Shown piece after piece: positions 6,611 through 21,794 of a DNA stretch of 64,000 nt (the stretch's first letter is position 1; each line of letters begins with the position of its first letter). The translations under genes were made by a program, and so were the position numbers. Under the pieces are notes generated by a model. That model did not search any database and was not told the origin of the DNA. It saw only the letters and a list, made by a program, of their open reading frames with translations. Where the stretch lies: the NCBI GenBank assembly GCA_947176505.1, contig CAMWQW010000013.1, forward strand, positions 55,565-119,564, in the 5' to 3' direction. The stretch is from an uncultured Lachnospiraceae bacterium (GTDB lineage Bacteria; Bacillota; Clostridia; Lachnospirales; Lachnospiraceae).

Positions 6611-9139
6611 TCAGTCTGTTGCACGCAGCCGCTCCACCAGACTGTCCTTCTCCAGATTCTTAAAGCACAGATACGGAATCAGTACGGCAAACACCACAAG
6701 AAGCGGCGTACACAGTACAAGCGGCAGCAATGTAAAGTGAAAAGTCGTATAGCCTCCCGCAACCATCGCTCGAACACCGATGCCCACTCCCAACGCGCTC
6801 AAAACATAGGTGACTATTAAAGTCAATCCAGCGTAGTCCAATCCCTCGAATACAAGCAGTTTACATAACTGAGATTTTGTCATCCCCACACTCTGTATCA
6901 TGGCAAATTCTTTTTTGCGGGAAACAATCGCCGTGATCATGGAATTGACAAAGTTCAGTACGCCTACAAGCGCAATCACACTACTGATGGCATTGCCCAT
7001 CACAGCACTGGAGCGTGTCTCTCTCCCATATTGCTCCGCCATAGAATTTCTGGAAGTGACCGGAAGGGTCAATCCAATCCTGCTAAAATACTCATCTAAT
7101 TTATCCTGCGCCTCATCAAGCTTATCATCACTGACATTGAAGTACAGTTTACGCAGGGTATTATCCCGCCAATTCTCCTTGAACGTCTCTGTCGGCATAA
7201 TAAAATCCAGATAGAAAGCATTCTGTGGTCCTCCCTCATAAGCGCCATCCGTCACCGGCTGTAAGCTGTTAAGCACCGCCATAACCGTATACTCTCTGCC
7301 TTCTATATCCACTTTGTCACCCACACTGACAGTCGGCATAGCCTGCTCTTTGATGCCGGGTTCCATCCCCGGACCAATCGCCAGCACATATTCGCCCGTG
7401 GCAAAAAGTTCGCCGTCAAAGCTTCCGTTCTCCCAATATTCTTCCCCACTGTATACATCCAATGGAATGCCGTCTATACCGTAAATTACGGAATGGGCTT
7501 CTTTATTCTCGATGGCTTCGCGCAGCGTCTCAACCCCTGTCGGGTCGTACGATGCCCAAAAAGAGAGTATCTCATCCGTATAAAATCCCTCTATATTCTC
7601 TATAGTCTGTTCGTCCAACCCAATCCGAGTCTCATGACTGTACAGATGTCCTGTTTGCTCCAGCCCCTCTATTGACTCAACCAGTCTAGGCAATTCACCT
7701 TCTAAAGTGATGCTCTGTGGGTCATACCCTGTCATATAAGCCTCGTTTGTAATCTCATCTATCTGATAATCCGCTATCGTCAGGCTTTCCAGATATTTAT
7801 CCATATCAAAAGACATATTCTTGGCATAGAAGCAGCTCATCAGCGTGAGTCCCAAGGTAAGAGAACAGATTACCGTAATCGTGCGTTTCCGGTTACGTCC
7901 GAGATTTGACCATGCCAGTGCAAATAGCGACGCACTGCCCTGTCTCTTCTTCCTGCTTCGTCCAATTCGATCTACATCGCTGTAGCGCAGCGCTTCCATG
8001 GGCGATACTTTTCCTGCCATTTTTGCCGGACGCATACAAGAGACCACTACAGTCAATCCTGCAAACAAAGCAGAACCTATGAAAATAACCGGACTCGCAG
8101 ACGCACTTCCCACCTGAAAACTAATAAGCGCCGGAACCAGAGCTGCTCCAAGCAGGTACCCCAGAAGCAGACCAATCGGAATACCGATGATACACAATCG
8201 TCCCGCCTGCATATAAATCAGCTTCTTAATCTGCTTCTTCGTAGTTCCCAACGTTTTCAGTCTGCCGTAGAACTGTATATCCGCCGTGACAGATATCTGG
8301 AAAATATTATAGATAATCAAATATCCTGCCACAAATACAAGAATCATTCCCAGATACATAGGTATATTCTCCTGCGCTGCCATTCGGTTCATCTCGGAAG
8401 AATATGCCAAATTCACATTATACTCCAAGCCGTTCATCCCTAAGTCCGACAAAATACGCTCCATACTGCCCTCAATATCCCTGTCATGATAAAGAGTAAC
8501 CTGCGCCATACGGATTCCCATTCTTGTCTCCGGATTCGGTCCGCCGATGGCATTCACGATTCCATCTGCAAACTCTCTGCTTACCCACGCCATACTGGCA
8601 TAACTGCTTTCATTCGCCTCCCAGAAGCCGCACAGGATAAATGTGGAAGTGCGCATCTCTTTTGATACAAAATCCGCCATCCACTCTATCGTCACCTGCG
8701 CGCCTAACTCATGCTCCACGCCAAGCCTGTCAAGCACCATGGTATCCAGCGCGATCTCATTCTCCGCTTCCGGCATTCTTCCTGTAACCGGCATTGCAAA
8801 AGAATGCTTCGCATAACTTTCGTCCGCCCACCGCACTTCCACCTGCCGTCCTGCAACACGTCTGTCCTGTGCCAGCCCGACCACGATGCTGTTTCCTACT
8901 TCTTCCACTTCGGGATGGGCTGCAAGCTTATCAGCCTGCTCTTCGGTAATCGTTTTAAAGGATGCCTGTGCATCATAACCGGTCTGTTTGAAAGTCATCT
9001 CGATGATATTCTTGTTCATGCTCTGACTTAAAACAAAGAGTGTGGTAAACATTAAAGTGGTAAGTATAATAGCAAGTACTGCCACCATATTACGCCCTTT
9101 ATTCTGTTTGAAAGTTCGTTTACTTATCACTGAAATCAT
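6611..9139 (-). CDS. FtsX-family ABC transporter permease
   Basis: An 842-residue permease built like the one at the left edge: N-terminal helix (about 18-40), a large extracytoplasmic domain to about residue 255, helices with the signature FYGRLKTLGTTKKQIKKL, then a second half with its own extracytoplasmic domain and a second signature (FAMIQSVGMTKSQL). Its start overlaps the end of the ATPase gene by 20 nt, so the pair is co-expressed. An 11-bp-phased operator lies before the ATPase, suggesting induction by an OmpR-family regulator, perhaps the one at 21.1-21.8 kb. The substrate is unknown; peptide-antibiotic resistance is the common role of the family. Confidence 0.9.
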   Translation of the reverse strand: MISVISKRTFKQNKGRNMVAVLAIILTTLMFTTLFVLSQSMNKNIIEMTFKQTGYDAQASFKTITEEQADKLAAHPEVEEVGNSIVVGLAQDRRVAGRQVEVRWADESYAKHSFAMPVTGRMPEAENEIALDTMVLDRLGVEHELGAQVTIEWMADFVSKEMRTSTFILCGFWEANESSYASMAWVSREFADGIVNAIGGPNPETRMGIRMAQVTLYHDRDIEGSMERILSDLGMNGLEYNVNLAYSSEMNRMAAQENIPMYLGMILVFVAGYLIIYNIFQISVTADIQFYGRLKTLGTTKKQIKKLIYMQAGRLCIIGIPIGLLLGYLLGAALVPALISFQVGSASASPVIFIGSALFAGLTVVVSCMRPAKMAGKVSPMEALRYSDVDRIGRSRKKRQGSASLFALAWSNLGRNRKRTITVICSLTLGLTLMSCFYAKNMSFDMDKYLESLTIADYQIDEITNEAYMTGYDPQSITLEGELPRLVESIEGLEQTGHLYSHETRIGLDEQTIENIEGFYTDEILSFWASYDPTGVETLREAIENKEAHSVIYGIDGIPLDVYSGEEYWENGSFDGELFATGEYVLAIGPGMEPGIKEQAMPTVSVGDKVDIEGREYTVMAVLNSLQPVTDGAYEGGPQNAFYLDFIMPTETFKENWRDNTLRKLYFNVSDDKLDEAQDKLDEYFSRIGLTLPVTSRNSMAEQYGRETRSSAVMGNAISSVIALVGVLNFVNSMITAIVSRKKEFAMIQSVGMTKSQLCKLLVFEGLDYAGLTLIVTYVLSALGVGIGVRAMVAGGYTTFHFTLLPLVLCTPLLVVFAVLIPYLCFKNLEKDSLVERLRATD

Positions 9140-9821
9140 TTCCGTCTCCCCCTATCACAATGTGTCCGTCTTCAATGCGTACCACCCTGTCCGCACGTGC
9201 CGCAATCTCCGGATTGTGGGTAATCATCACAATCGTCTGGTGAAACTGTTCGCTGGTCATCTTAAGCAGACTGATAACATCGTCACTCGTTCCCGAATCC
9301 AGATTACCCGTCGGTTCGTCAGCCAGAATAATAGACGGTTTCGTCGCCAACGCACGGGCAATCGCCACCCTTTGCTGCTGCCCGCCCGAAAGCTGGTTCG
9401 GCAGGCTGTCCAGCTTGCTCTCCAATCCGAGTAAACCCACTATTTCCATGATAAATTTCCGGTCCGGCTTACGGGAATCGAGTGAAATCGGAAAAATAAT
9501 ATTTTCCCAAACAGTCAACACCGGCACCAGATTATAATTCTGGAAAATAAATCCGATCTGTTTCCTTCTGAAAATCGTCGCCTGCTCTGCATTAAGTCCC
9601 GCAAGCTCCTGATTTCCGATTCTGACGCTGCCTTCGCTCGGCACATCCAATCCGCCGAGTATATTTAACAGTGTAGATTTGCCGCTGCCGCTTGTACCGA
9701 TAATCGCGGTAAATTTTCCTCTCTCAATCTCCAAATCAACGCCGTCCAAAGCCTTGACAAGCGTCTCACCCGCACCATAATATTTCTTCAATCCCGTAGC
9801 TTTTACAATCGCCTCCATCAC
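9120..9821 (-). CDS. ABC transporter ATP-binding protein (MacB/BceA type)
   Basis: A 233-residue ATPase with Walker [10 protein letters not shown] near residue 41, signature LSGGQQQR and Walker [13 protein letters not shown]. It is the partner of the permease just downstream. It closely resembles the ATPase at 12.6-13.2 kb in the Y-loop ([18 protein letters not shown]), so the two systems look like paralogues. A probable terminator separates it from the preceding operon, and it has its own regulated promoter. Confidence 0.92.
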
Positions 9822-9892
9822 TTTTCCACCTTTCTTTTCTTACCCTATGGATTCGAGCGCACATTGTCCGACATCCGAATCCTTACAGTAAT

Positions 9893-9937
9893 ATTCTATC
9901 AGCGCTAAGTTACAGGCAAGGTACAGAAAAGGTACAT
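9893..9937 (-). promoter_or_regulatory. Promoter with three 11-bp-phased direct repeats
   Basis: On the minus strand, ATGTACC-tttt-CTGTACC-ttgc-CTGTAAC (9937 to 9909) is three heptamers with 4-bp spacers, the 7+4 geometry of PhoB/OmpR-family boxes. The last repeat ends 10 bp before a -10-like TAGAAT (9898-9893), the spacing known for regulator-activated promoters lacking a good -35. It drives the ATPase/permease pair at 9821-6611. The binding protein is inferred. Confidence 0.55.
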
Positions 9938-9963
9938 TTTTGTGAGCTTCGCTAAATTACAAA

Positions 9964-9991
9964 ACGGACTGCAACTTCCGTTACAATCCGT
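9964..9991 (-). terminator. Rho-independent terminator
   Basis: A 12-bp stem (two G-U pairs) with a 4-nt loop, followed on the minus strand by TTTTG. It lies 14 bp after the stop of the 10.0-12.6 kb permease and separates that operon from the next ABC pair. Confidence 0.7.
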
Positions 9992-10005
9992 CTTATTCAA
10001 CATTC

Positions 10006-12597
10006 TTACTCCACCATCTGCAATCTCTGCGTAACACTCTCCTTCATAATCACCCGCAGACAACATGGAGGAATCGCCATCGCGATGATCAATAGCAACG
10101 GCAGCGTAACCCACATCGGCAACAGAGAGTATCTCCATGTGACGCACCATGCACTGGGGGAATAAGCTGCCCACCATCTCCCCCACAGCCATGTCAGAAC
10201 AGATACCAACGGTACAAGAAGAGCAGTCAATATCCCTCCGTACATCAATCCTTCTCCGGCAAACAACCTGCGAATCTGCATACGCGTCATGCCAAGGCTC
10301 TCATACACCGCTATCTCCCTCTTGCGGATAAGAACCCCTGTCACCAGTGCATTACCGAGATTCAATATGCCAATCAAAAGAAGGACTGCCCCCACAAACA
10401 TCGGAATCAAATAATTATGAAACAGTGCGTTACGAAAGTTCCATTGGTGGTCGCTCCGCATAGTCACTGCAATACCGCTATCCCGGGTCACTTCAGTCAA
10501 AAAGTCCTCAAACTCTATTTGACCATTATAGTCAATATTCACCAACATATTTCTGATACCGCTGTCGGGAAATAATTCCTCAAATACCTGCACCGGCATA
10601 TAGTAAGAAACATTGAATGCCGCCTCTCTGCTATCGGCACCGGCAATCAAACCTCCCTTATAAGAAACGGACGCCATAATCTCAAAGGAGCGTCCTCCGA
10701 TTTCTACCCGGCTTCCAACCGGAGGCGTCGAAACAAAAGACGTTGTGCTGGCGCCCGATGCAACCACATAGTCTCCCGTTGCAAAGCGCTCTGCATCATA
10801 GATGCCTTCCACATATTCTCCTTCAGCCAACGCCACGGTCAATGCCAGTCCGTCTATTCCGGAAGCAATCCCGATATAATCCCCTGTTTCCCGGAATTTC
10901 TCGTAGCCGGCTATCCAGTCCGGTGAGTCAGCCATAACCTCTTTTCTGACTATGCCATCCTCATTCTCACCTTCAAAGTTCTCCACGATAAGGGCACGTT
11001 CTTCCCAGTCCGCATGCATAGGCACCTCCATCGTGCAAATCGCCCCCATCCCGGTCACTGCCTCATGCTCCGCAAGCGCCTTCATGAATTCCGGCGTGAT
11101 ACTATGGCTCGCAGGATTATATCGTTGATAACTGCTGGCGGCGGAAGCATCCGCGATCAGATAATCACTGTAAGCGATATCTTCCAGATACTTCTCTTCA
11201 TCGGTACTGACATACTGCGTCCAAAAGCCGCACAGCAGTGTCAATGACAAGAGCATGGATGCCGCAGCTAACACGGTTTTCCTCTTATTCCGTTTCATTC
11301 CGGACAATGCCATAAGAGATACTCTGTCACGCCGCCTTCTCCCGATACGACGGCGGTATCCATTCTCGTGCTTATGGTTCTCTGCACCGGCTCCGCCGTC
11401 ATGCAGCGGGCTTGCTTTGCTGAAATCAACGACTTTCATCGCTTCAGCCGGACTGATTCGTGATACAAACCACGCCGGAAAAATACATGCAGTCAGCGTT
11501 GAAAACCATGTGAGCAGTCCGCTGCACACAAACGGACTCAGACGAAAGAACAAAAAAGCCGGATTTATCCCGTCCGTCTCAAGGATTATGTACGGTGCAA
11601 CTACAGCATAAAGTACAAATCCAAACAGCCATCCAATAGGAATCGCCGGCAGGCATAAATATGCCGCCTGCTCAAATAAGAGCCTGCCAATCTGTCTGGG
11701 ACTCATTCCCAAACTCTTCAATCTTCCATAAAACTTCACATTCTGTGCTGTGGAAATGCGCATGATATTATAAACCATCAAAATACCGCCCACCACTACT
11801 GCAATATTGATGATATGGTAAGGCGCCGCTTTTTCGTCCGCCCGCTTCATTCTGGCACTGTTATATGCCAGATTTGTCGTATAAGAAACATTACTGATTC
11901 CCAGTTCACCTAACAGACTTTCCGCCTGCCTTTCCAAATCATGCGGACGATACAAGGTTACCCCGAGAGTTATCAGATCCGGTGCTTCCGGACAGAGCGC
12001 ACTCGCGGCATCCGGAGTAATCCATGCACAAGTTTCCGTATATCCCATAACATTATTCCACCATCCGCAAAGCCGGAACGTGTCCACACGCTTTTCACCC
12101 CCATCCGCAGGCGTCCACACAAGCGTTACCTCGGCTCCTTCCTTGCGCGGAATCGCCAAGGACTGCAGCGTAAGCTCATCCAATGCAATCTCATCGTCAG
12201 CTTCCGGCATCCTGCCGCAAATCGGAACTGCCTGCGTTGCCGCAGCCCAAGCGTCATCCACCGCCGCAAGCTTCACACTGCGATATTCCATCATATCATC
12301 AGACAGCAGTCCTATCGCCTTTAAGCGAACCGTTTTCTTCACGTCGGCATGACCCGCAACAGATAATGCCTGCGTACTGTTTAATCCGTAATACAGAATA
12401 TGACTCGCTGAACCGTATCGAACCTGATAACTGTACAACAATCCGTCCCGAATCATAAATCCGAGCGCAAAAGAAAAAGTACACAGCATACTCATCAGCA
12501 CAATTGCCGTTATGAGAAGTATGCTGCGTCCTTTATGAAATTGAAACTCTCGCCACACCAGTCTGCGGCATATTTTAAGATTATTATTCTCTAACAA
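10006..12597 (-). CDS. FtsX-family ABC transporter permease
   Basis: About 863 residues from the TTG at 12597, which has GGAGG nine bases before it. A longer in-frame opening exists (TTG 12633, ATG 12606), but homologous N-termini begin close to the first helix, so I prefer the shorter form. The layout is the same as in the paralogue at 6.6-9.1 kb: two halves, each with an extracytoplasmic domain, and the signatures FYGRLKSLGMSPRQI and IAVYESLGMTRMQI. A basic loop follows the first half. It is the partner of the ATPase encoded immediately upstream and is part of the operon that carries the DegV-fused kinase. Confidence 0.85.
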   Translation of the reverse strand: MLENNNLKICRRLVWREFQFHKGRSILLITAIVLMSMLCTFSFALGFMIRDGLLYSYQVRYGSASHILYYGLNSTQALSVAGHADVKKTVRLKAIGLLSDDMMEYRSVKLAAVDDAWAAATQAVPICGRMPEADDEIALDELTLQSLAIPRKEGAEVTLVWTPADGGEKRVDTFRLCGWWNNVMGYTETCAWITPDAASALCPEAPDLITLGVTLYRPHDLERQAESLLGELGISNVSYTTNLAYNSARMKRADEKAAPYHIINIAVVVGGILMVYNIMRISTAQNVKFYGRLKSLGMSPRQIGRLLFEQAAYLCLPAIPIGWLFGFVLYAVVAPYIILETDGINPAFLFFRLSPFVCSGLLTWFSTLTACIFPAWFVSRISPAEAMKVVDFSKASPLHDGGAGAENHKHENGYRRRIGRRRRDRVSLMALSGMKRNKRKTVLAAASMLLSLTLLCGFWTQYVSTDEEKYLEDIAYSDYLIADASAASSYQRYNPASHSITPEFMKALAEHEAVTGMGAICTMEVPMHADWEERALIVENFEGENEDGIVRKEVMADSPDWIAGYEKFRETGDYIGIASGIDGLALTVALAEGEYVEGIYDAERFATGDYVVASGASTTSFVSTPPVGSRVEIGGRSFEIMASVSYKGGLIAGADSREAAFNVSYYMPVQVFEELFPDSGIRNMLVNIDYNGQIEFEDFLTEVTRDSGIAVTMRSDHQWNFRNALFHNYLIPMFVGAVLLLIGILNLGNALVTGVLIRKREIAVYESLGMTRMQIRRLFAGEGLMYGGILTALLVPLVSVLTWLWGRWWAAYSPSAWCVTWRYSLLPMWVTLPLLLIIAMAIPPCCLRVIMKESVTQRLQMVE

Positions 12598-13246
12598 TCC
12601 TCCCATCCTCCATATGCAGCACCCGATCTGCAAGCTGCGCCAGCTCCTGATTGTGAGTGATCATTACAAGCGTCCGGTGATAAAGCTGTGCTGTCATCTT
12701 TAAAAGCCCGGCTACATTCTGTCCGTTACGGGAATCCAGATTTCCGGTGGGTTCATCAGCCAATATAATAGGCGGTTTTGAAATCAACGCTCTGGCAATC
12801 GCAACCCTTTGCTGCTGTCCGCCGGAAAGCACATTGGGATATGTCTGCATCCTGTCTTCCAATCCCAACAGACTCACGATTTCTTTCAAGAAATTTCCAT
12901 CGGGTGCGGAACCGTCCAAATCCAGCGGAAACATAATATTTTCTTCAACCGTCAAAGTGGGGACGAGGTTATAATTCTGAAAAATAAATCCAATCTTCTT
13001 ACGCCGGAAAACTGCTAACTGTTTTTCCCGCAAATTCTCGAGATTTACACCGTCCACACACACTTTACCCTCCGTAGGTACATCGAGACCGCCAATCATA
13101 TTAAGCAACGTTGTCTTTCCGCTGCCCGATGCTCCCACGATGGCTGCAAATTCTCCCCTTGCGATTGTAAGCTCAATACCGTCCAGCGCCTTGACCAGAT
13201 TCTCGCCTCTCCCGTAATATTTCTTAAGGTTATGTACTTTAATCAT
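12584..13246 (-). CDS. ABC transporter ATP-binding protein (MacB/BceA type)
   Basis: About 220 residues from the ATG at 13246, preceded by GGAGAAGC. An in-frame extension to 13327 would run through the end of the upstream kinase gene and is rejected. The protein carries Walker A GASGSGKTT, signature LSGGQQQR and [12 protein letters not shown]. It starts only 20 bp after the stop of the kinase-receiver-DegV gene and ends inside the opening of the permease gene. The kinase, ATPase and permease are therefore very likely one transcription unit. Confidence 0.9.
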   Translation of the reverse strand: MIKVHNLKKYYGRGENLVKALDGIELTIARGEFAAIVGASGSGKTTLLNMIGGLDVPTEGKVCVDGVNLENLREKQLAVFRRKKIGFIFQNYNLVPTLTVEENIMFPLDLDGSAPDGNFLKEIVSLLGLEDRMQTYPNVLSGGQQQRVAIARALISKPPIILADEPTGNLDSRNGQNVAGLLKMTAQLYHRTLVMITHNQELAQLADRVLHMEDGRIVRE

Positions 13247-13266
13247 AGCAAAAAAGCTTCTCCAAT

Positions 13267-15963
13267 CTACCCCTGCTCCACTTTCTCCTTCTTCACAAAC
13301 ATCAGACCAAACACTCCCACACCGCAATTACTTGATACAGTAGCTGAAGCTTTCTGGGTAATGACTCTGTCAAAATGTATATACTTCTCTGCTTCTTCCA
13401 ATATTTCCCCGACTTGATGCACCGTACATCCCGCATAAGTAAGGAACAAAATGCTCGTATCTATCTGCTTACCGTGTTGGAGCAGACGCTTTACATATCT
13501 GCGCCTTACATGATTCATATTTCCCGCTTCTATCTTCCAAAGTTTCAATTCATTTTGGGACATGTGCAGAACCGGATGCAGATTTAACCTGCTGCATACC
13601 TTATGCACCAGTGCGCTGATTTTACCGTTACGGTAAAGGGCTTCCGTGCTCGGTACAAGAAAGTTAGAACATATTCTCTCGCGCATCCCGTCCAATGCCT
13701 CGCATATTTCCTGAACAGATTTTCCCTCTTCCGCCATAACGGCTGCATACAGCACCATAAGACCGTGCCCGCTGCTGATGTGTGCTGAATCCACTATGGT
13801 GACATTGTCAAAACTCTTACTCGCCTGCAACGCGTTCGGATAAGCGCCGCTTAAATCCACGGTTGCCGTGATATGGATCACATGCTCTGCTGTTTCCAGT
13901 GTATCCGCAAAGAAATATTCATATTCTGCGGGCGGTGCCGTGGAAGAATGCGCATAATTCCCCTCCGTCTGCAGATAATGAAGCACGCTGTCGGAAGAAA
14001 CCTCAAAGAGGTCGCAGAACCGTCCTTCTTTCGTATGGACATAACAATACATCAGCCTGATCTGATATTTTTCCAGTAAATTTTTCGGCAGATCACAGAT
14101 ACAGTCCGCAGTGATGGCTACTTTACGTTTTCTCACACTGGTCACACGGTTAACCGCCGTCTCTTCCTCCGTCTCGTCATCCTCCTCCCGGGCGGTGTAC
14201 TCGATCAGTTCCGGCGGCAGATATTTTAACAGACTTGCCTCCAGCAGCGCGGCGTTAATAGGCTTCGCAAGATATCCGTCGAATCCCATATTCTGATAGA
14301 CCTGTTCTGCGTTTGTCATGACATTGGCAGTCAGAGCTACGATGGGCGATTTCTGACAGAATCCTTTCGTCTGGGCACGCACTGCCTTCATGGTTTCCTC
14401 TCCATCCATATCCGGCATCATGTGATCCATCAAAATTGCATGATACAGATTCTCCGCCGTCAGTCTCAGACACTGTTTGCCGCTGTCAGCCGTATCAACC
14501 TTGATTCCCGTGCCTCTTAACAGCTTGATTGCTACCATACGGTTCATATCATTATCATCCACGACAAGCACTCTGGCATCCGGCGCCGTAAAACTCTGCT
14601 TATATTTCTCACGGTTGTTAAGCTGTTTCTGCGCTGCAAAATTAATCACGCCGATAGGGCGTACATTGACAATACGCTGCCTGATTTCTATCGTAAAGGT
14701 GGATCCCTTGTGGTAAACGCTGTCCACGTATATTCTGCCGCCCATCATCTCTATCAGCTGCTTGGATATATTAAGTCCCAATCCGGTTCCCTCGATATTA
14801 CGGTTTTCTCCCTCATCCACGCGCTTGAAGGAGCTGAACAAATCATCCAAGCTCTCTTTACGGATTCCCATACCGGTATCCGTCACGGAAATACGCAGCA
14901 TAATCTGATCCGCCGCGATCCTCTCTCCCTTCGCCGTTAAAGTAACCGAACCCTCCGCAGTATATTTGACTGCATTGGTCAACATATTGGTGACCACCTG
15001 TTTGATCCGCACTTCATCACCATAGAGCATGGACGGAATCTCCGGATCGATATCTACCTTAAATTCCAGCTCTTTCTCATGGGCGCGGATCCAAATCAAG
15101 TTTACCAAATCGCTGAACATGGAACTGATTTCGTACTGTGCCGGTACAATCTCCATTTTACCTGACTCTAACTTAGACAAATCCAGAATGTCATTGATGG
15201 TAGTAAGTAACATTTTACTGGCATTTTGAATATTAATGGCATTCTCGGCAATCTCATCGGAAATATCTTCTCTGAGCGTCATTTCATTCAATCCGATGAT
15301 GGTATTGATGGGTGTGCGAATCTCATGACTCATATTTGCAAAAAAAACATCCTTGGACCGGGCAATCTGCTCAATCTCTTCCTTCTGCTTCTCCGCCAGC
15401 TTCTGCTCCTTGTCATAGGTTTTCGCCTGAATTTTCATTAAAAGACCGATAAAACAGCTCACAACCACCATCGTGATATACGAATCGGAAAAGCTGTATG
15501 TACGGCTTCCTGCCGGAATCATGTCCGGATACTTATACGCAATAAAATATGTCACAAGAAAAGATGCCGCAGAAATAAAGAATGTAATGACTAATTCTTT
15601 GCCGTCAAAAAGCAGGAATATATAGACAAGTCCCAATACAAACCAGACGGGCGTGCCGCTTTCCACCCCGCCGCTCATAATGAAAATAATCGGAAACAGG
15701 ATGACATTCGATGTGATGACAAGCAGTCTTGCTGCCTGTTTGATTTTTCGTCTGTCTTCTGCTATATAAAGCGAAATGCCTGAAACGATGCACATCGGTA
15801 TCAGAGCATACATTACCTTAGACGCCGCACCCAGAATCACCCGCCCCATTCCGATCACAGACGCTGCAAATGCCAATAACAGAACGATTCTGATAAGCCT
15901 TGTCTGAAAGTCCACCTTGTCATTTAACAGAGACCGCACAAATCTACGCATTCTCCTAATCAT
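13267..15963 (-). CDS. Hybrid histidine kinase-receiver-DegV fusion protein
   Basis: About 898 residues from the ATG at 15963, which has GGAGG six bases upstream and overlaps the previous gene by 8 nt. In order: six or so membrane helices (about 20-175); a short coil; HisKA with the phospho-acceptor in FFANMSHEIRTP (His about 213); HATPase_c with DTGMGI and GTGLGL; a receiver (about 464-576) with VLVVDDND and acceptor Asp in LMDHMMPDMDG; a linker; then about 280 residues matching the DegV family: KVAITADCICDLP at its start, AHSSTAPP, HITATVDLSGAYPNA, VDSAHISSGHG and TYAG further on. DegV/FakB proteins bind fatty acids. Fusion to a kinase suggests lipid sensing or output, which is inference. 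Confidence 0.85.
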   Translation of the reverse strand: MIRRMRRFVRSLLNDKVDFQTRLIRIVLLLAFAASVIGMGRVILGAASKVMYALIPMCIVSGISLYIAEDRRKIKQAARLLVITSNVILFPIIFIMSGGVESGTPVWFVLGLVYIFLLFDGKELVITFFISAASFLVTYFIAYKYPDMIPAGSRTYSFSDSYITMVVVSCFIGLLMKIQAKTYDKEQKLAEKQKEEIEQIARSKDVFFANMSHEIRTPINTIIGLNEMTLREDISDEIAENAINIQNASKMLLTTINDILDLSKLESGKMEIVPAQYEISSMFSDLVNLIWIRAHEKELEFKVDIDPEIPSMLYGDEVRIKQVVTNMLTNAVKYTAEGSVTLTAKGERIAADQIMLRISVTDTGMGIRKESLDDLFSSFKRVDEGENRNIEGTGLGLNISKQLIEMMGGRIYVDSVYHKGSTFTIEIRQRIVNVRPIGVINFAAQKQLNNREKYKQSFTAPDARVLVVDDNDMNRMVAIKLLRGTGIKVDTADSGKQCLRLTAENLYHAILMDHMMPDMDGEETMKAVRAQTKGFCQKSPIVALTANVMTNAEQVYQNMGFDGYLAKPINAALLEASLLKYLPPELIEYTAREEDDETEEETAVNRVTSVRKRKVAITADCICDLPKNLLEKYQIRLMYCYVHTKEGRFCDLFEVSSDSVLHYLQTEGNYAHSSTAPPAEYEYFFADTLETAEHVIHITATVDLSGAYPNALQASKSFDNVTIVDSAHISSGHGLMVLYAAVMAEEGKSVQEICEALDGMRERICSNFLVPSTEALYRNGKISALVHKVCSRLNLHPVLHMSQNELKLWKIEAGNMNHVRRRYVKRLLQHGKQIDTSILFLTYAGCTVHQVGEILEEAEKYIHFDRVITQKASATVSSNCGVGVFGLMFVKKEKVEQG

Positions 15964-18832
15964 AGTTTCCTCCATTCTGACTGTCCATATTCTTCTCTTT
16001 CCAATTATCCAGCACATTGATGGCTTCGAGGAAATCAAACTCCTCCACATTCTGTCTGATTCTGGCTGTCATTTCGCTTAAATGTATTCCGTGATATGTA
16101 TAAGGCATCAGCTGTTTCAGAATTTCCTCCACACCTTCGCTCTCAAAATTATCAAGCTGCTCCCGCAACAGACTAAGCTGCTTTGTCAGTATCCTCTCTT
16201 CTATCTCCGTTTCGCTCTCATCCGTCGTCCTCTCGCTCTTTTCCTCGTGTAATCCTGCCTCCGACCCGTTTTCTGATTCCGGATCGTGATATCCGTCAGG
16301 ATAAATAAACGAATTATTCCCAAGTGCTGTCAAAAGTTCTTCATGCTTCTTCATGAATTCTGCATGATGTTCCAAAATGTACTCTATGCGGTTTTCCTTG
16401 CCTGCCATCTCCATGCCAAAAGCAAGCTCTGCCAGATCGTTGGCTCCGATTCCTCTGGAATTGCTCTTTAAGGCATGGGCGGTAATGGCATAATTTTTCC
16501 AATTCTGTTCCTCAAACAACTGTTTAAGCTGACGGCTCCGCCCTGCTCCCTGTGCATGATACATGGCAATGATTTCCCGCAGCCCTTCTCTGTCTCCGCA
16601 ATAGGATATTCCCTGCGAAATATTGATTCCCGCACGGCGTAATGCCTCCAGCCCCTCAGATTCAGGCGAAACCTCTTCCGTTCCTGCCTCTTTGTCTGTT
16701 CCTGCAGGCGCCTTAACCTCACTGTCCCTATCGGCAAAATCTGCTCTCTCTTCCTGCGTCTGCGTTTCCACTTTAACCTGCTTCTGTGTCGGAATATAAC
16801 GCTGCAGCATTCTCTCAAGCACACTCAGCTCTATCGGCTTGGCAATGAAATCGTCAAACCCTTCCTCCATAAACATTTCTCTCGCGCCGCCGATGGCATT
16901 TGCCGTAAAAGCAATCACCGGAAGAGATTGGAAATACGCGCCCGGTTTCTGGCGTATTCTATGTAATGTCTCTACGCCGTCCATATCCGGCATCATATGG
17001 TCTAAGAATACACAGTCGTATTCCATGCTGTTTAGTTTATCCAGCGCTTCCTGTCCGCCCAGCGCCATGACAACCTTAATCTGATACGGCAGCAAAAGTC
17101 TTGCCATGACTTTCAGATTCATGGCATTGTCATCCACCACAAGAACCTTTGCCTCAGGCGCAACGAACCGGTAACGGTTGTGATTTTCTTCGTTTTGAAG
17201 CACTTTCTCGCCATTCAATACTGCTGCTATGGACAGCACGGTAAATGGTTTGTAGATACGCAGCATATTGCCTTTCTCCTGCTGCTCCTGATCATAGTCA
17301 AGTATGAGCACCACTTTGAGTTCCAAAGACACCTTCTCAAAAAACTCTCTGTCCTCACCGTACTCTTCCCAACCGATAAAAACATGCGTGTAATTCTCAT
17401 TATCCATACGCCGCTTCAACTCGGAAAGGTTCCTGCACACACGAAACATAATGCCAAACTGTTCCGCCATATGGCGCATACATCTCTCGTACCCTTCCCG
17501 CACCACGGAATAGTCATATTTATCCATATTGATATAACATGCCACGAAAATGCGGCTCTTGTTTCTAATAGAGACGATAGGTGTTTCATCCAGCACTTTC
17601 TGCGGAATCGTGAACCGAAATTCCGTCCCGTTTCCGGGTTCGCTCTCAACGCTGATAAAACCGCCCATATTGCGCACCAATGCCTGTGTGATGGCAAGCC
17701 CCAGTCCGACGCCGCCCTCTTCTCTGTTCCGTCCGGAATTGACTTGGCTGAAGCTTGCGAAAATTTTCTCCAGATCGTCCTCTTCCATTCCGATGCCGGA
17801 ATCCTTAATACTGACCATCAGATTGATTCCGTACTCTTCTTTCCGGCTCTTAATGCGGAGGATAATACCGCCCTCCTTCGTAAATTTAATGGCATTTTCC
17901 AACAGGTTCATGACAATGCGCCGAAATTTCTGTTCATCACCTAACAGGTTACTCGGAAGGTTCGCATCACAATCTACAATCAATTCCAGCTGCTTGCCGT
18001 TTTCCAATGTCATAGCCATATTAATGATATCCGTAATCGTGGAAGTAATATTATAACTCTCTTCCGCCAGTTCCATTTTGCCGCTCTCTAATTCGGAAAA
18101 ATCCAGTATATTGCTGACCGTGGAGAGAAGGTTGCGTCCTGCCGTCTGAATATCTATGATATCGCGTCTTACACTCATCGGGATGTCTTCCTGCAGTATT
18201 GCCTCACTCATACCGCACACCGCATTGATGGGCGTACGGATTTCATGCGAAATATTGACCATAAAATCATCTTTGCTCTTCTCGACAATCTCCAGCTCCC
18301 GTATATTATCAATCAGCTCCTCATTGGTCTCCTGTCTGGTACGGATCGTAATCCACGTAACAAGCAAAATGGCATAGGCTGATACAATATGCAGAACCGT
18401 ACGCAGTATGTCGTTGGCGGATTCCACATTGATCGTCCGCAAGACAAAACCGTGATAAGCAAAAATCACCGTCGTAAAAAAGACTCCCATATACACAATA
18501 TCGTTAATGCCAAAGATGCCTAAGAGGACAATCAAAGCAAGCATCGTTGAAAGCATGGAAGTAAAGCTGACTGACTGTATCGCATAAACAATAAAGTTCA
18601 CCCAAGAAATAACTGCCAGAAATTTTGCGCGGTACACGTAATCCCGATACTGCTTCATATGAACAATCCATCCCGCAGCAATCGTGACAACAATGATTTC
18701 CTTAAAGATCAGATTCCATTCTAACAATATTGATGAGACAAACATGGAGAATGAGAAGGCTGTAAAAAAGCCCAATACAATCTGCTCCAGTTTCCTTCCC
18801 ATCTTATCATTCCTAAACTGTCTCTCGTCCAA
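15956..18832 (-). CDS. Hybrid histidine kinase with pseudo-receiver, receiver and Hpt domain
   Basis: A 958-residue phosphorelay protein; the start is a TTG with GGAAGG about ten bases upstream, and ATG 18802 is an alternative. About six membrane helices (20-165) precede HisKA (MVNISHEIRTP), HATPase_c (DSGIGM, GVGLGL), a receiver-sized segment lacking the phospho-acceptor pattern, a full receiver (VLVVDDNA, FLDHMMPDMDG), and an Hpt domain with ITAHALKSNSRGIG near residue 785. A C-terminal helical tail of about 70 residues follows an acidic linker. Phosphate could pass His-Asp-His to another receiver, for example the neighbouring REC-HD-GYP protein or the receiver of the DegV fusion. The coupling is inferred from adjacency. 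Confidence 0.88.
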   Translation of the reverse strand: MDERQFRNDKMGRKLEQIVLGFFTAFSFSMFVSSILLEWNLIFKEIIVVTIAAGWIVHMKQYRDYVYRAKFLAVISWVNFIVYAIQSVSFTSMLSTMLALIVLLGIFGINDIVYMGVFFTTVIFAYHGFVLRTINVESANDILRTVLHIVSAYAILLVTWITIRTRQETNEELIDNIRELEIVEKSKDDFMVNISHEIRTPINAVCGMSEAILQEDIPMSVRRDIIDIQTAGRNLLSTVSNILDFSELESGKMELAEESYNITSTITDIINMAMTLENGKQLELIVDCDANLPSNLLGDEQKFRRIVMNLLENAIKFTKEGGIILRIKSRKEEYGINLMVSIKDSGIGMEEDDLEKIFASFSQVNSGRNREEGGVGLGLAITQALVRNMGGFISVESEPGNGTEFRFTIPQKVLDETPIVSIRNKSRIFVACYINMDKYDYSVVREGYERCMRHMAEQFGIMFRVCRNLSELKRRMDNENYTHVFIGWEEYGEDREFFEKVSLELKVVLILDYDQEQQEKGNMLRIYKPFTVLSIAAVLNGEKVLQNEENHNRYRFVAPEAKVLVVDDNAMNLKVMARLLLPYQIKVVMALGGQEALDKLNSMEYDCVFLDHMMPDMDGVETLHRIRQKPGAYFQSLPVIAFTANAIGGAREMFMEEGFDDFIAKPIELSVLERMLQRYIPTQKQVKVETQTQEERADFADRDSEVKAPAGTDKEAGTEEVSPESEGLEALRRAGINISQGISYCGDREGLREIIAMYHAQGAGRSRQLKQLFEEQNWKNYAITAHALKSNSRGIGANDLAELAFGMEMAGKENRIEYILEHHAEFMKKHEELLTALGNNSFIYPDGYHDPESENGSEAGLHEEKSERTTDESETEIEERILTKQLSLLREQLDNFESEGVEEILKQLMPYTYHGIHLSEMTARIRQNVEEFDFLEAINVLDNWKEKNMDSQNGGNYD

Positions 18833-18873
18833 AGTAATCTACCTTCCCCGCTTTGTCTTCATTTCATCTTTAC

Positions 18874-19941
18874 TTAACTGATATCCAGCACTTCCTTTAA
18901 CATCGGAAGCATCTCCATAAACACATCAATAATCACCGGATCGAATTGCGTGCCCCTCCCGTCCAGCATAATCTGCATAATCTTCTCGATTGGACGCACC
19001 GGCGGCTTATAGCATCGTTCCTCGTAGAGCGCATCAAAGACATCTGCCACTGCCATAATCCGTGCCGCTAACGGTATCTCCTCCTGCTTTAGTCCCGTCG
19101 GATATCCCGTGCCGTCCCACCTCTCATGATGATACAGGGCAATATCTTCCACAATCCGCACGTAATGCTCGTCTTCCACATCTCCGATAATCATCTGAAT
19201 GATCTTGCTGCTGTGTGTAGTGTGCTGCTTCATGGTGTCGAATTCTTCCGGCGTGAGCCTGCCGGGCTTTTGCAAAATAGAATCCGGAATTTTAATCTTC
19301 CCCACATCATGGAGCGGCGCCGCTTTACAGAGATCCTCTATGTATTCTTCCGTCAATTCCTCCATAAAAAGATTACGCCTGCGCAGCTCATCCGCAATCA
19401 TACGCACATACATCTGCGTATTTTTGACATGCTTGCCGGTGCTGCCGTCCCTGCTCTCAATCAGATTCGCCATACCGATAATAACAGAGTCCTGAATCTT
19501 ACTGATACGGCTGGAAGCTTCAATAATTTTGTCCGCCTGCTCTTTGACCATATTCTCTAAGTTATGCCGGTACTGGTCAAGCTCTATCGTCTTATCCACA
19601 CGACTGAGCAGGATATCCGGAACAAAAGGCTTCGTAACGAAATCCATTGCGCCCATCTGAAAACATTTGATTTCCGTCTCCGCCAGATTATCCGCCGTCA
19701 GAAAAATCACAGGAATCGTCTTCGTATCTTCCTTCATTCGAAGCTGTTCCATCACTTCATATCCGTCCATGTCCGGCATATTGATATCCAGAAGAATCAA
19801 TTCCGGATGATGACTCTCCAAATATTTCAAAGCTCCCATACCGGAGTTGGAAGCTGCGATGCGGTACCGCGGCATAAGAATCTTCTGCGCAAGCGCCAGA
19901 TTCGTCTTGTCATCGTCCACCACCAAAATTGTATTTTTCAT
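18874..19941 (-). CDS. Response regulator with HD-GYP phosphodiesterase domain
   Basis: A 355-residue RpfG-like protein. The N-terminal receiver (VVDDDKTN; acceptor in LLDINMPDMDG; FVTKPF) is joined by a short coiled segment to an HD-GYP domain with HDVGKIKIP and HHERWDGTGYPTGL, the metal-binding and GYP signatures intact. It should hydrolyse cyclic di-GMP when phosphorylated. It ends 41 bp before the Hpt-bearing hybrid kinase on the same strand, which is a natural phosphodonor. No active GGDEF cyclase was seen in the window. Confidence 0.92.
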   Translation of the reverse strand: MKNTILVVDDDKTNLALAQKILMPRYRIAASNSGMGALKYLESHHPELILLDINMPDMDGYEVMEQLRMKEDTKTIPVIFLTADNLAETEIKCFQMGAMDFVTKPFVPDILLSRVDKTIELDQYRHNLENMVKEQADKIIEASSRISKIQDSVIIGMANLIESRDGSTGKHVKNTQMYVRMIADELRRRNLFMEELTEEYIEDLCKAAPLHDVGKIKIPDSILQKPGRLTPEEFDTMKQHTTHSSKIIQMIIGDVEDEHYVRIVEDIALYHHERWDGTGYPTGLKQEEIPLAARIMAVADVFDALYEERCYKPPVRPIEKIMQIMLDGRGTQFDPVIIDVFMEMLPMLKEVLDIS

Positions 19942-20015: not shown

Positions 20016-21089
20016 CTAATTCAACAAATATACGGAAAAGGTGCTTCCTCTTCCAACCTTTGATTTGACACTGATATAGCCTCTTTGTCTGTTCATAATC
20101 CCTTGCGCCAGATAGAGTCCAAGACCGACTCCCTCCAAACCTGAGGCATCCTCTCCGCGATAGAAACGTTTGAACACGTCATGGCAGTGCTCATCCGGTA
20201 TGCCGATTCCGGTATCTGTAATATCCACGCGCGTATAAAACTGCCATGGACGGACATTGACATGTACGCTTCCGCCCTCCGGGGTGTACTTGACCGCATT
20301 GTCCAGAATATTACCGAGAGCCTCTGCCGTCCACTTGGAATCATGCCGCACCATGACTGATTCGTCACACGCCACCGAAAGCCCGATATGCTTAGCTTCT
20401 GCCCTTGCCAGAACACCGTTTAACGCCTGTGCAATCGTATCGTACAGGCTCGTCTCTTTTGTATGCATCATAAAAGTCCCTGTTTCCAGCCGCGACATCT
20501 TAATCAACGACTGCATAAGGAAGTCCAGTTTATCAATCTGTCCCGCCATAGTAGCCAAAAATTCCGACTGCTTTTCCTCACTGAGCTGATGCTTCTGTAA
20601 TATGCCTATAAACATCGAAAGATTAGCTATCGGTGTTTTAACTTGATGGGAAATATCGCTCACCAATTCCTGTATGGTCTGCTTGTCTTTCAGGCTGCGT
20701 CTCCACTGCTCACTCATCAGATCATAATATTGCAGGAATTTCCCCTGCACCCTTGCCGTCAGAGTATCCTCGTAGGGGTCGTAGTTCTCCGGTTCACGTC
20801 CTGCCATCAATTCATCCAGTGTCCGGCATAGCTCCTCCGCAAAACCGCAAACCTGTTTCCGCTGCCACAGACACCATATAACCGCCAGAAGACAGATGCC
20901 CCCGCACAAAGCAAGCAGCGTATATCGCACTTCACTGCGCGGAACCCATATCCACAACACATACAAAAACAATGCAAACAACGCTGTTCCTGTAACAATC
21001 ATCACCGTCTCGACCATGCGGCTTCCCATATGGCTGCCTGCATAGCTTCCGGTCTGTCTTCTCTGCGCCTGTTCCATAATTGTATTCAC
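20016..21089 (-). CDS. Sensor histidine kinase with short extracellular loop (BceS/VanS-like)
   Basis: A 357-residue kinase. Two closely spaced helices (about 26-48 and 55-75) leave only about seven residues outside the membrane, so there is no room for a sensory domain. That is the intramembrane-sensing layout of kinases that read the state of a partner ABC transporter. HisKA has SDISHQVKTPIANL; the ATPase domain has DNAVKYTPEGG, DTGIGIP and GVGLGLYLA. It begins 9 bp after the regulator gene. The FtsX-type ABC pairs downstream on the same strand are plausible partners. Confidence 0.9.
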   Translation of the reverse strand: MNTIMEQAQRRQTGSYAGSHMGSRMVETVMIVTGTALFALFLYVLWIWVPRSEVRYTLLALCGGICLLAVIWCLWQRKQVCGFAEELCRTLDELMAGREPENYDPYEDTLTARVQGKFLQYYDLMSEQWRRSLKDKQTIQELVSDISHQVKTPIANLSMFIGILQKHQLSEEKQSEFLATMAGQIDKLDFLMQSLIKMSRLETGTFMMHTKETSLYDTIAQALNGVLARAEAKHIGLSVACDESVMVRHDSKWTAEALGNILDNAVKYTPEGGSVHVNVRPWQFYTRVDITDTGIGIPDEHCHDVFKRFYRGEDASGLEGVGLGLYLAQGIMNRQRGYISVKSKVGRGSTFSVYLLN

Positions 21090-21098
21090 CCGTTCTTC

Positions 21099-21794
21099 TT
21101 ATTTCTGCTGCCTCTGCCAGACATATCCCATCCCCCGCACTGTCTTGACACAGATATGCTCATCATCTTCAATTTTCGCACGAAGTCTGTTCATAGTCAC
21201 CGTCAAAGTATGGTCATCTATATAATTGCCGTCACAGTCCCACAACTTTTCAAGCAGGACCTGTCGCGTCACTACTTTGCCTGCATTTGCCGTCAAAACT
21301 TTTAAAAGCTTATATTCGTTCGGTGTAATCGACAGCTTCTCCCCTTTGCAGACCGCGGTAAGCGCTCCAAAATCTATCTGTAAGAAATCATCCTGATAAA
21401 GCTCTTTATCATCCGGTCTCTCATGCAAAACACTTCCCCGGCGAATCGCCACCTCTACCCGCCTTAACAGTATCTGCATATGAAAAGGTTTCGTAATATA
21501 GTCCTCCGCCCCCAAATCAAAACCGCGCAATACATCTTCGTCCAAATCGTTAGCGGTAAGAAAAATTACCGGCATCCGCGGATGTGCACTCTTTAGCTCC
21601 CGACACAGTTCAAATCCGCTTCCATCCGGCAGATTCACATCGAGAATAGCCAGCGCAAAGTCTTCCTGTGATGCCAGATATCTCGCCTTCTTGCAGTTGT
21701 AGGCTGCCTGCGTCGCATAGCCGGTCTGGTCCAGTTCAAAGCACAGACCGGTACTTAGGGCAAGGTCATCTTCCACAACTAAAATTCGTTCCAT
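21099..21794 (-). CDS. OmpR-family response regulator
   Basis: A 231-residue regulator. The receiver has VVEDDLALS, acceptor Asp in AILDVNLPDGSG and KPFHMQIL; it is joined to a winged-helix Trans_reg_C domain (ITPNEYKLLKVL, DDHTLTVTMNRLRAKI, VRGMGYVW). It is co-transcribed with the kinase 9 bp downstream. AAGGAG precedes the ATG. Its own promoter has a TTGGCA-N16-TATAAA core behind a tandem repeat array. Regulators of this type bind 11-bp-phased repeats, as found at 9909-9937. Confidence 0.93.
   Translation of the reverse strand: MERILVVEDDLALSTGLCFELDQTGYATQAAYNCKKARYLASQEDFALAILDVNLPDGSGFELCRELKSAHPRMPVIFLTANDLDEDVLRGFDLGAEDYITKPFHMQILLRRVEVAIRRGSVLHERPDDKELYQDDFLQIDFGALTAVCKGEKLSITPNEYKLLKVLTANAGKVVTRQVLLEKLWDCDGNYIDDHTLTVTMNRLRAKIEDDEHICVKTVRGMGYVWQRQQK

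Follow-up and report, generated by a model that had tools for sequence, protein, structure and literature searches.

A FakB-like DegV domain on a Lachnospiraceae hybrid histidine kinase as a candidate lipid receptor in a proposed phosphorelay directed at c-di-GMP

Introduction

DegV proteins are mostly known as partners of the kinase FakA. What would a DegV domain do at the end of a hybrid histidine kinase? The question is raised by a stretch of 64,000 nucleotides from an uncultured Lachnospiraceae bacterium (assembly GCA_947176505.1, contig CAMWQW010000013.1), here called the window, whose positions 13267-15963 encode a histidine kinase-receiver-DegV (HK-REC-DegV) fusion protein of 898 amino acids. 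It stands third in a conserved cassette, which the preliminary reading of this DNA had not reported and whose two upstream genes span 15956-19941. All coordinates are in window numbering and every feature lies on the minus strand. A preliminary description of this DNA had suggested that the fusion reads, or acts on, the state of membrane lipids. We propose, with a probability of roughly 0.58, that the DegV domain is a FakB-derived, FakA-independent receptor for a lipid, probably a fatty acid, in a phosphorelay of two kinases controlling cyclic di-GMP (c-di-GMP).

Results

The frame at 13267-15963 is intact: it starts with an ATG at 15963, so that it shares 8 bases with the upstream gene, which ends at 15956, and its translation runs from M to G* with no internal stop. 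The residue positions given here for the Pfam domains refer to a version of the protein with one extra leading residue. A membrane domain of six hydrophobic segments (15436-15888, residues 26-176; no Pfam match) comes first, followed by HisKA (15160-15354, Pfam residues 205-269) with the phospho-accepting His in NMSHEIRTP, HATPase_c (14677-15021, residues 316-430), a receiver (14236-14571, Response_reg residues 466-577) with its Asp in LMDHMMPDMDG, and a DegV domain (13288-14124, residues 615-893). All the domains that the preliminary description had placed on one chain are therefore on it, and the five DegV landmark peptides it had named, among them ITADCICDLP, AHSSTAPP, VDSAHISSGHG and TYAG, occur in the translation. 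With HisKA phospho-His, HATPase_c and receiver phospho-Asp on this chain and a histidine phosphotransfer (Hpt) domain on its partner, the predicted parts of a hybrid histidine kinase phosphorelay are complete. A motif scan of the fusion members found the His motif in 122 of 129, the N-box in 120 of 129 and the receiver Asp motif in 124 of 127, so that, judged by sequence, almost every member has an intact kinase and receiver. The closest record found was from an uncultured Lachnospiraceae metagenome-assembled genome (L038), with 90% identity in the best segment, records of the window's own genome possibly having been left out.

Could the fusion be two genes joined through a sequencing or assembly error? 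The gene is split in a few loci (L098/L130, L045, L078 and L093), but the survey of genomes refutes this explanation, the chance of which we regard as practically nil, and with it the frameshift that the preliminary description had considered. A protein search with annotation of the surroundings found kinase core and DegV together in one open frame of 700 residues or more in at least 46 of 299 genomes of the same family, a lower bound that was counted by hand twice from a list ending at weak matches. One of the 46 (G180) has its membrane part in a separate frame, and another (G240) has DegV first in a frame truncated where its contig stops; shorter frames, likewise truncated, come from two more genomes (G163 and G174). 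On GTDB contigs, the fusion was present in 67 of the 80 loci returned; of the others, 12 lacked a DegV match and one was a split gene. Because the two sets of loci share members (L098 and L130 denote one place), these counts are not independent events.

The fusion is rare outside Lachnospiraceae. A DegV match in a frame longer than 700 amino acids occurred in at least 11 of 295 genomes of the order (E ≤ 1e-45, counted by hand, a lower bound), ten of them in the same family and one in another. The survey of the phylum gave at least 3 of 398 genomes, all of the same family and none beyond it at the threshold used (E ≤ 1e-50, again a lower bound that left out frames of 580 amino acids in G639 and 397 in G883). 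Labels that place metagenome-assembled genomes outside Lachnospiraceae (L050, L095, L104 and L113) were not trusted.

The C-terminal domain belongs to the DegV superfamily. It matched PF02645 over profile positions 1-280 of 280 with 150.2 bits (cut-off 27; E 9.6e-44), and TIGR00762 with 161.7 bits against a cut-off of 99.7. Its AlphaFold2 model had a mean pLDDT (predicted local distance difference test) of 93.0 and a pTM (predicted TM-score) of 0.90, and rows 1 to 45 of a Foldseek search of the PDB were DegV/FakB chains (E 3.9e-24 to 2.8e-16; TM-score 0.74-0.86 by query length), many of the structures with fatty acid. The predicted fold is thus that of DegV/FakB, and both comparisons that the preliminary description had proposed, with Pfam DegV and with FakB, bear out its assignment. 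Weaker matches of the model were DhaK and the C-domain of FakA. The profile of the latter (PF13684) also matches some fusion DegV domains, with E 1.3e-8 at G288:C22:122656-123207, which we take as a sign of the shared fold.

The residues that mark FakB carriers are largely altered. In the 2016 work of Broussard et al., T61, S93 and H266 are reported to hold the fatty-acid carboxylate, R170 to serve the acyl-phosphate and R202 to dock FakA. The window DegV has S61, S93, K170, A202 and N266, the last being Asn879 (codon 13327-13329), a cassette-specific replacement of His, and so it departs from the FakB set of five. When Ser was accepted at 61, all five residues were found together in none of 133 cassette DegVs versus 19 of 22 stand-alone ones, a small set made up mostly of the nearest stand-alone relatives of the cassette DegVs; one stand-alone DegV of the window's own genome (L005), dropped by a coverage filter, keeps all five and would make this 20 of 23. 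Position 266 is Asn in 126 and His in 1 of the 133, as against His in 20 and Tyr in 2 of the 22. The 133 rows hold many close relatives, and among 72 representatives below 70% identity N266 is present in 65. A hydroxyl at 61, S93, and Asn or His at 266 are kept jointly in 101 of the 133 cassette rows, the window included. This pattern fits a DegV that still holds a carboxylate-headed lipid and no longer presents that lipid to FakA.

One could instead regard the DegV domain as the output: phosphorylation of the receiver would make it load fatty acid, or deliver it to FakA for phospholipid synthesis. The fold and family agree with this, and FakA was found in the window's own genome and in all 40 fusion genomes searched (of 46 known). 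The residues speak against it, since Arg202 is kept in 2, Arg170 in 39 (it is often Lys) and His266 in 1 of the 133 cassette DegVs, compared with 21, 22 and 20 of the 22 stand-alone ones; moreover, the own genome has six other DegVs, all stand-alone, of which four keep all five residues. We consider such an output improbable. Of the two halves of the preliminary suggestion, that the domain reads lipid state stays plausible, given that 101 of 133 rows retain the carboxylate-holding positions or show conservative changes there, and given the apparent membrane fold described below, whereas that it acts on lipids through FakA is disfavoured by the loss or replacement of the FakA-docking and phosphoryl residues. 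In one locus (L127:8117-9901, plus strand there), a single open reading frame of 594 amino acids combines Dak2 and the middle domain of FakA with a DegV that has Asn at 266, giving a FakA-like kinase with its own DegV.

Two observations weigh against a fatty-acid receptor. S93 is lost in 32 of the 133 cassette rows, which counts against that reading as a general claim, and the polar site is changed (N266, often K170, and further cassette signature positions at 33, 36, 38, 257 and 260). Both would suit a DegV that binds some other small molecule, or one that is a mere platform for docking or dimerisation with the partner kinase. That the fold is full length and matches DegV/FakB chains best argues the other way, as do the 101 rows with the joint residues, and we hold these alternatives to be unlikely, though by no means negligible.

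The preliminary description had considered this gene alone, but for the function of the proposed receptor most of the evidence lies in the two conserved genes beside it, and these suggest c-di-GMP as the output. Directly upstream lies the partner kinase (15956-18832, 958 amino acids in the longest open reading frame), in the order membrane helices-HisKA-HATPase-REC-Hpt with a stretch lacking Pfam matches before the receiver; its Hpt scored 23.6 bits in a first Pfam scan (cut-off 24.6) and 28.2 bits, above the cut-off, in another. Next comes a REC-HD-GYP regulator (18874-19941, 355 amino acids) with the motif HHERWDGTGYP, which probably breaks down c-di-GMP. A gene for an HK-REC-Hpt sensor next to one for a REC-HD-GYP regulator is the arrangement of RpfC/RpfG-type systems, and the window has it. 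Its own genome gave 22 GGDEF and 12 HD-GYP matches, which makes c-di-GMP signalling likely there.

On the GTDB contigs, a set that leans to close relatives, the fusion comes after an HK-REC(-REC)-Hpt gene in 61 of its 67 loci, and in 60 a regulator of the REC-HD-GYP or REC-GGDEF kind lies on the same strand within 4.5 kb. The association is looser in the broader set from the family survey (70 loci, 61 with the fusion): the fusion comes after an HK-REC gene in 51 loci, in 39 of them one with Hpt, and a c-di-GMP regulator is found in 24 of the 61, a single receiver in 11 more and neither in 26. Regulators of the cassettes include REC-HD-GYP, REC-GGDEF, and REC-GGDEF-REC-HD-GYP chains, and the HD-GYP motif is kept in 77 of 80. 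The motifs of the partner are less uniform than those of the fusion (His 113/115, N-box 65/115 or, with a looser pattern, 73/115, receiver Asp 100/115, Hpt 82/102). Some regulators beside the cassette are long, namely REC-GGDEF-REC-HD-GYP chains of 790-838 amino acids (L100, L157, L174, L181 and L187) and a REC-GGDEF-REC-GGDEF chain of 1018 (L145).

The Hpt domain moves between the cassette proteins, which suggests a single relay shared by the two kinases and the DegV protein. Ten fusions of 1114-1152 amino acids, class II, have the order HK-REC-DegV-Hpt, and nine of their ten partners are without Hpt, the tenth being cut. At two class I loci (L176 and L179) the partner lacks Hpt and an Hpt gene lies directly downstream; extra Hpt genes are nearby in other loci too (e.g., L122-L124, L157 and L173). 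The DegV also changes place: it is a separate gene beside HK-REC-Hpt in L131, L191 and L192, a DegV-Hpt protein between HK-REC and REC-GGDEF in L196, and N-terminal on an HK-REC-Hpt chain in L113 and, cut, in L171.

These arrangements bear on whether the DegV could carry the phosphoryl group itself, replacing the Hpt of ArcB- or BarA-type kinases in the manner of the EDD-fold relatives of the phosphotransferase system (PTS). Its position after the receiver and the matches to DhaK and the FakA C-domain would be in keeping with this, as would H796, which is commoner among cassette DegVs (52 of 72 representatives) than among stand-alone ones (2 of 22). However, no His is both invariant and cassette-specific: H796 is replaced in 20 of the 72, and H697, present in 64 of the 72, is also present in 16 of the 22. 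Besides, class II fusions keep a real Hpt after the DegV, and the DegV can be a separate gene. We judge this role very improbable. The receiver could also exchange phosphate with the DegV-bound fatty acid itself, an idea that stems from receiver Asp-phosphate and acyl-phosphate both being mixed anhydrides and that we regard as far-fetched.

A tree of 94 DegV domains, with the stand-alone rows as root, places the 70 cassette rows on one side of a branch with 100/100 support and, among them, three unfused DegVs outside the fused ones at 98/97. This order suggests that the DegV entered the cassette as a gene of its own and that the fusion came later. The tree includes 53 of the 117 class I rows as representatives, plus other cassette rows, and has long branches at L190, L126, L127 and L002. 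The window's own genome also has a DegV-free paralogous cassette (L213; G000:C4:66000-85999, 11827-17794) that encodes REC-HD-GYP, HK-REC and HK-REC-Hpt. Read by eye, the phospho-His of one of its kinases is replaced by Tyr, and the ATP-binding motifs of the other are degenerate, as though the pair had one kinase activity between them. Since the kinase motifs are partly lost, this paralogue is no proof that the relay runs without DegV; it is weak evidence, for a gene arrangement without DegV only.

The membrane domain of the fusion may be a second place where lipids are read. Its model resembles the six-helix domains of adenylyl cyclases, a structural likeness only (8% identity, Foldseek E 0.32). 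Some of those domains are lipid receptors. In the model the domain looks somewhat like a lipid-receptor fold, and perhaps it has a lipid-reading role. No sensor of the 5TMR or S-component type was among the matches listed in a repeat structure search, which excludes nothing.

A shared target gene behind the cassette was also sought. Among 70 of the 105 downstream genes, with 91 families, none was common, and the commonest families (Na/Ala symporter and GGDEF) reached at most 5 of 70; the 35 genes left out were mostly recognised REC, kinase and GGDEF genes, together with some second genes. On the same strand, the window cassette is flanked by two pairs of ABC ATPase and large permease downstream (6611-13246) and an OmpR/HK pair upstream (20016-21794). 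We dropped these genes as parts of the system because they were found only in the closest relatives: the OmpR/HK pair has close relatives only in L038-L040, L042, L049, L070 and L075, and the first ABC gene only in L038-L042, L049 and L070. Seven loci of class II or related to it (L119, L120, L121, L123, L126, L128 and L134) encode a protein of 248-256 amino acids with a true C-terminal receiver and an N-terminal half without domain match.

Discussion

We propose that the fusion and its HK-REC-Hpt partner form one relay, in which the phosphoryl group would pass from His to Asp, to the Hpt His, and to a second Asp on the receiver of the co-encoded REC-HD-GYP protein, and would so set the breakdown of c-di-GMP; in relatives with REC-GGDEF, it would set synthesis instead. 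The DegV domain would descend from FakB-type carriers, with its fold and most positions that hold the carboxylate retained and the marks of a FakA substrate lost. Its ligand would probably be a fatty acid, or a lipid like one, taken from membrane or cytosol. Whether loaded or empty, the domain would bias either the kinase/phosphatase balance or the REC-to-Hpt step. Architecture, predicted fold, clade, cassette and residue pattern are observed here, whereas the ligand, the direction in which the phosphoryl group flows, the c-di-GMP activity and the sign of the response are inferred. In a wider and more tentative picture, somewhat doubtful as it stands, a FakB carrier of Lachnospiraceae would have become a cytoplasmic relay receptor, perhaps alongside a lipid-reading membrane domain, so that c-di-GMP is set from intracellular fatty acids or those of diet or host; this would be a counterpart of Rpf and its diffusible signal factor (DSF) with a receptor of wholly different origin.

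The literature that we searched, in which subscription papers were not covered, contained no description of a DegV-hybrid kinase fusion or of DegV together with c-di-GMP, in agreement with the preliminary description, which knew of no function for the combination; passages of PMC12688256 concern a separate DegV gene. The combination of domains may be visible already in domain databases. To the known modules of hybrid-kinase phosphorelays the fusion adds a receptor domain for which no description in such a role was found, in a recurrent c-di-GMP context. DegV proteins would thus have a probable second job as signalling receptors, and two simple residue features, Asn at FakB2 position 266 and the absence of Arg202, can help to re-annotate DegVs in other genomes. 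The proposal implies a direct route from lipid to c-di-GMP in a major gut family, one by which these bacteria may adjust their lifestyle to the lipids they sense. It lends itself directly to testing, because DegV kinase, partner and HD-GYP regulator come from one operon.

How does this system compare with known ones? To S. aureus FakB2 (PDB 4x9x; FakA-FakB2 complex, 7w7h) the window domain has a TM-score of 0.84-0.85, and the two share a full-length domain, the fold, a hydroxyl at 61 and Ser at 93. Unlike FakB, the window DegV is fused to, or in relatives encoded with, a hybrid kinase, has His266 changed to Asn, Arg170 to Lys and Arg202 to Ala, and falls into a separate clade. A parallel is offered by PDB 2iu6, one of the Foldseek matches of the DegV model and a DhaQ-type EDD-fold regulator, an enzyme-associated protein turned ligand-sensing regulator; it acts on a TetR-type factor and binds another ligand, whereas the fusion would act on a phosphorelay. 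The adenylyl cyclases Rv1625c and AC9 and the quorum sensor CqsS have six-helix membrane domains that the one of the fusion may resemble, but that of the fusion feeds a kinase and not a cyclase.

Two signalling systems come close in what they sense. In S. aureus SaeRS, a Firmicute kinase has an activity that responds to intracellular free fatty acids (PMC5539427); SaeS senses through a two-helix membrane anchor, with no DegV domain described, while the fusion carries one. RpfC/RpfG of Xanthomonas senses the fatty acid DSF (PMC3749722), and there too an HK-REC-Hpt protein adjoins a REC-HD-GYP protein in one operon with c-di-GMP as output. The cassette differs in having a second hybrid kinase, with DegV, and in its host, Lachnospiraceae. 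Its likeness to RpfC/RpfG and to SaeS is one of analogy, not of membership.
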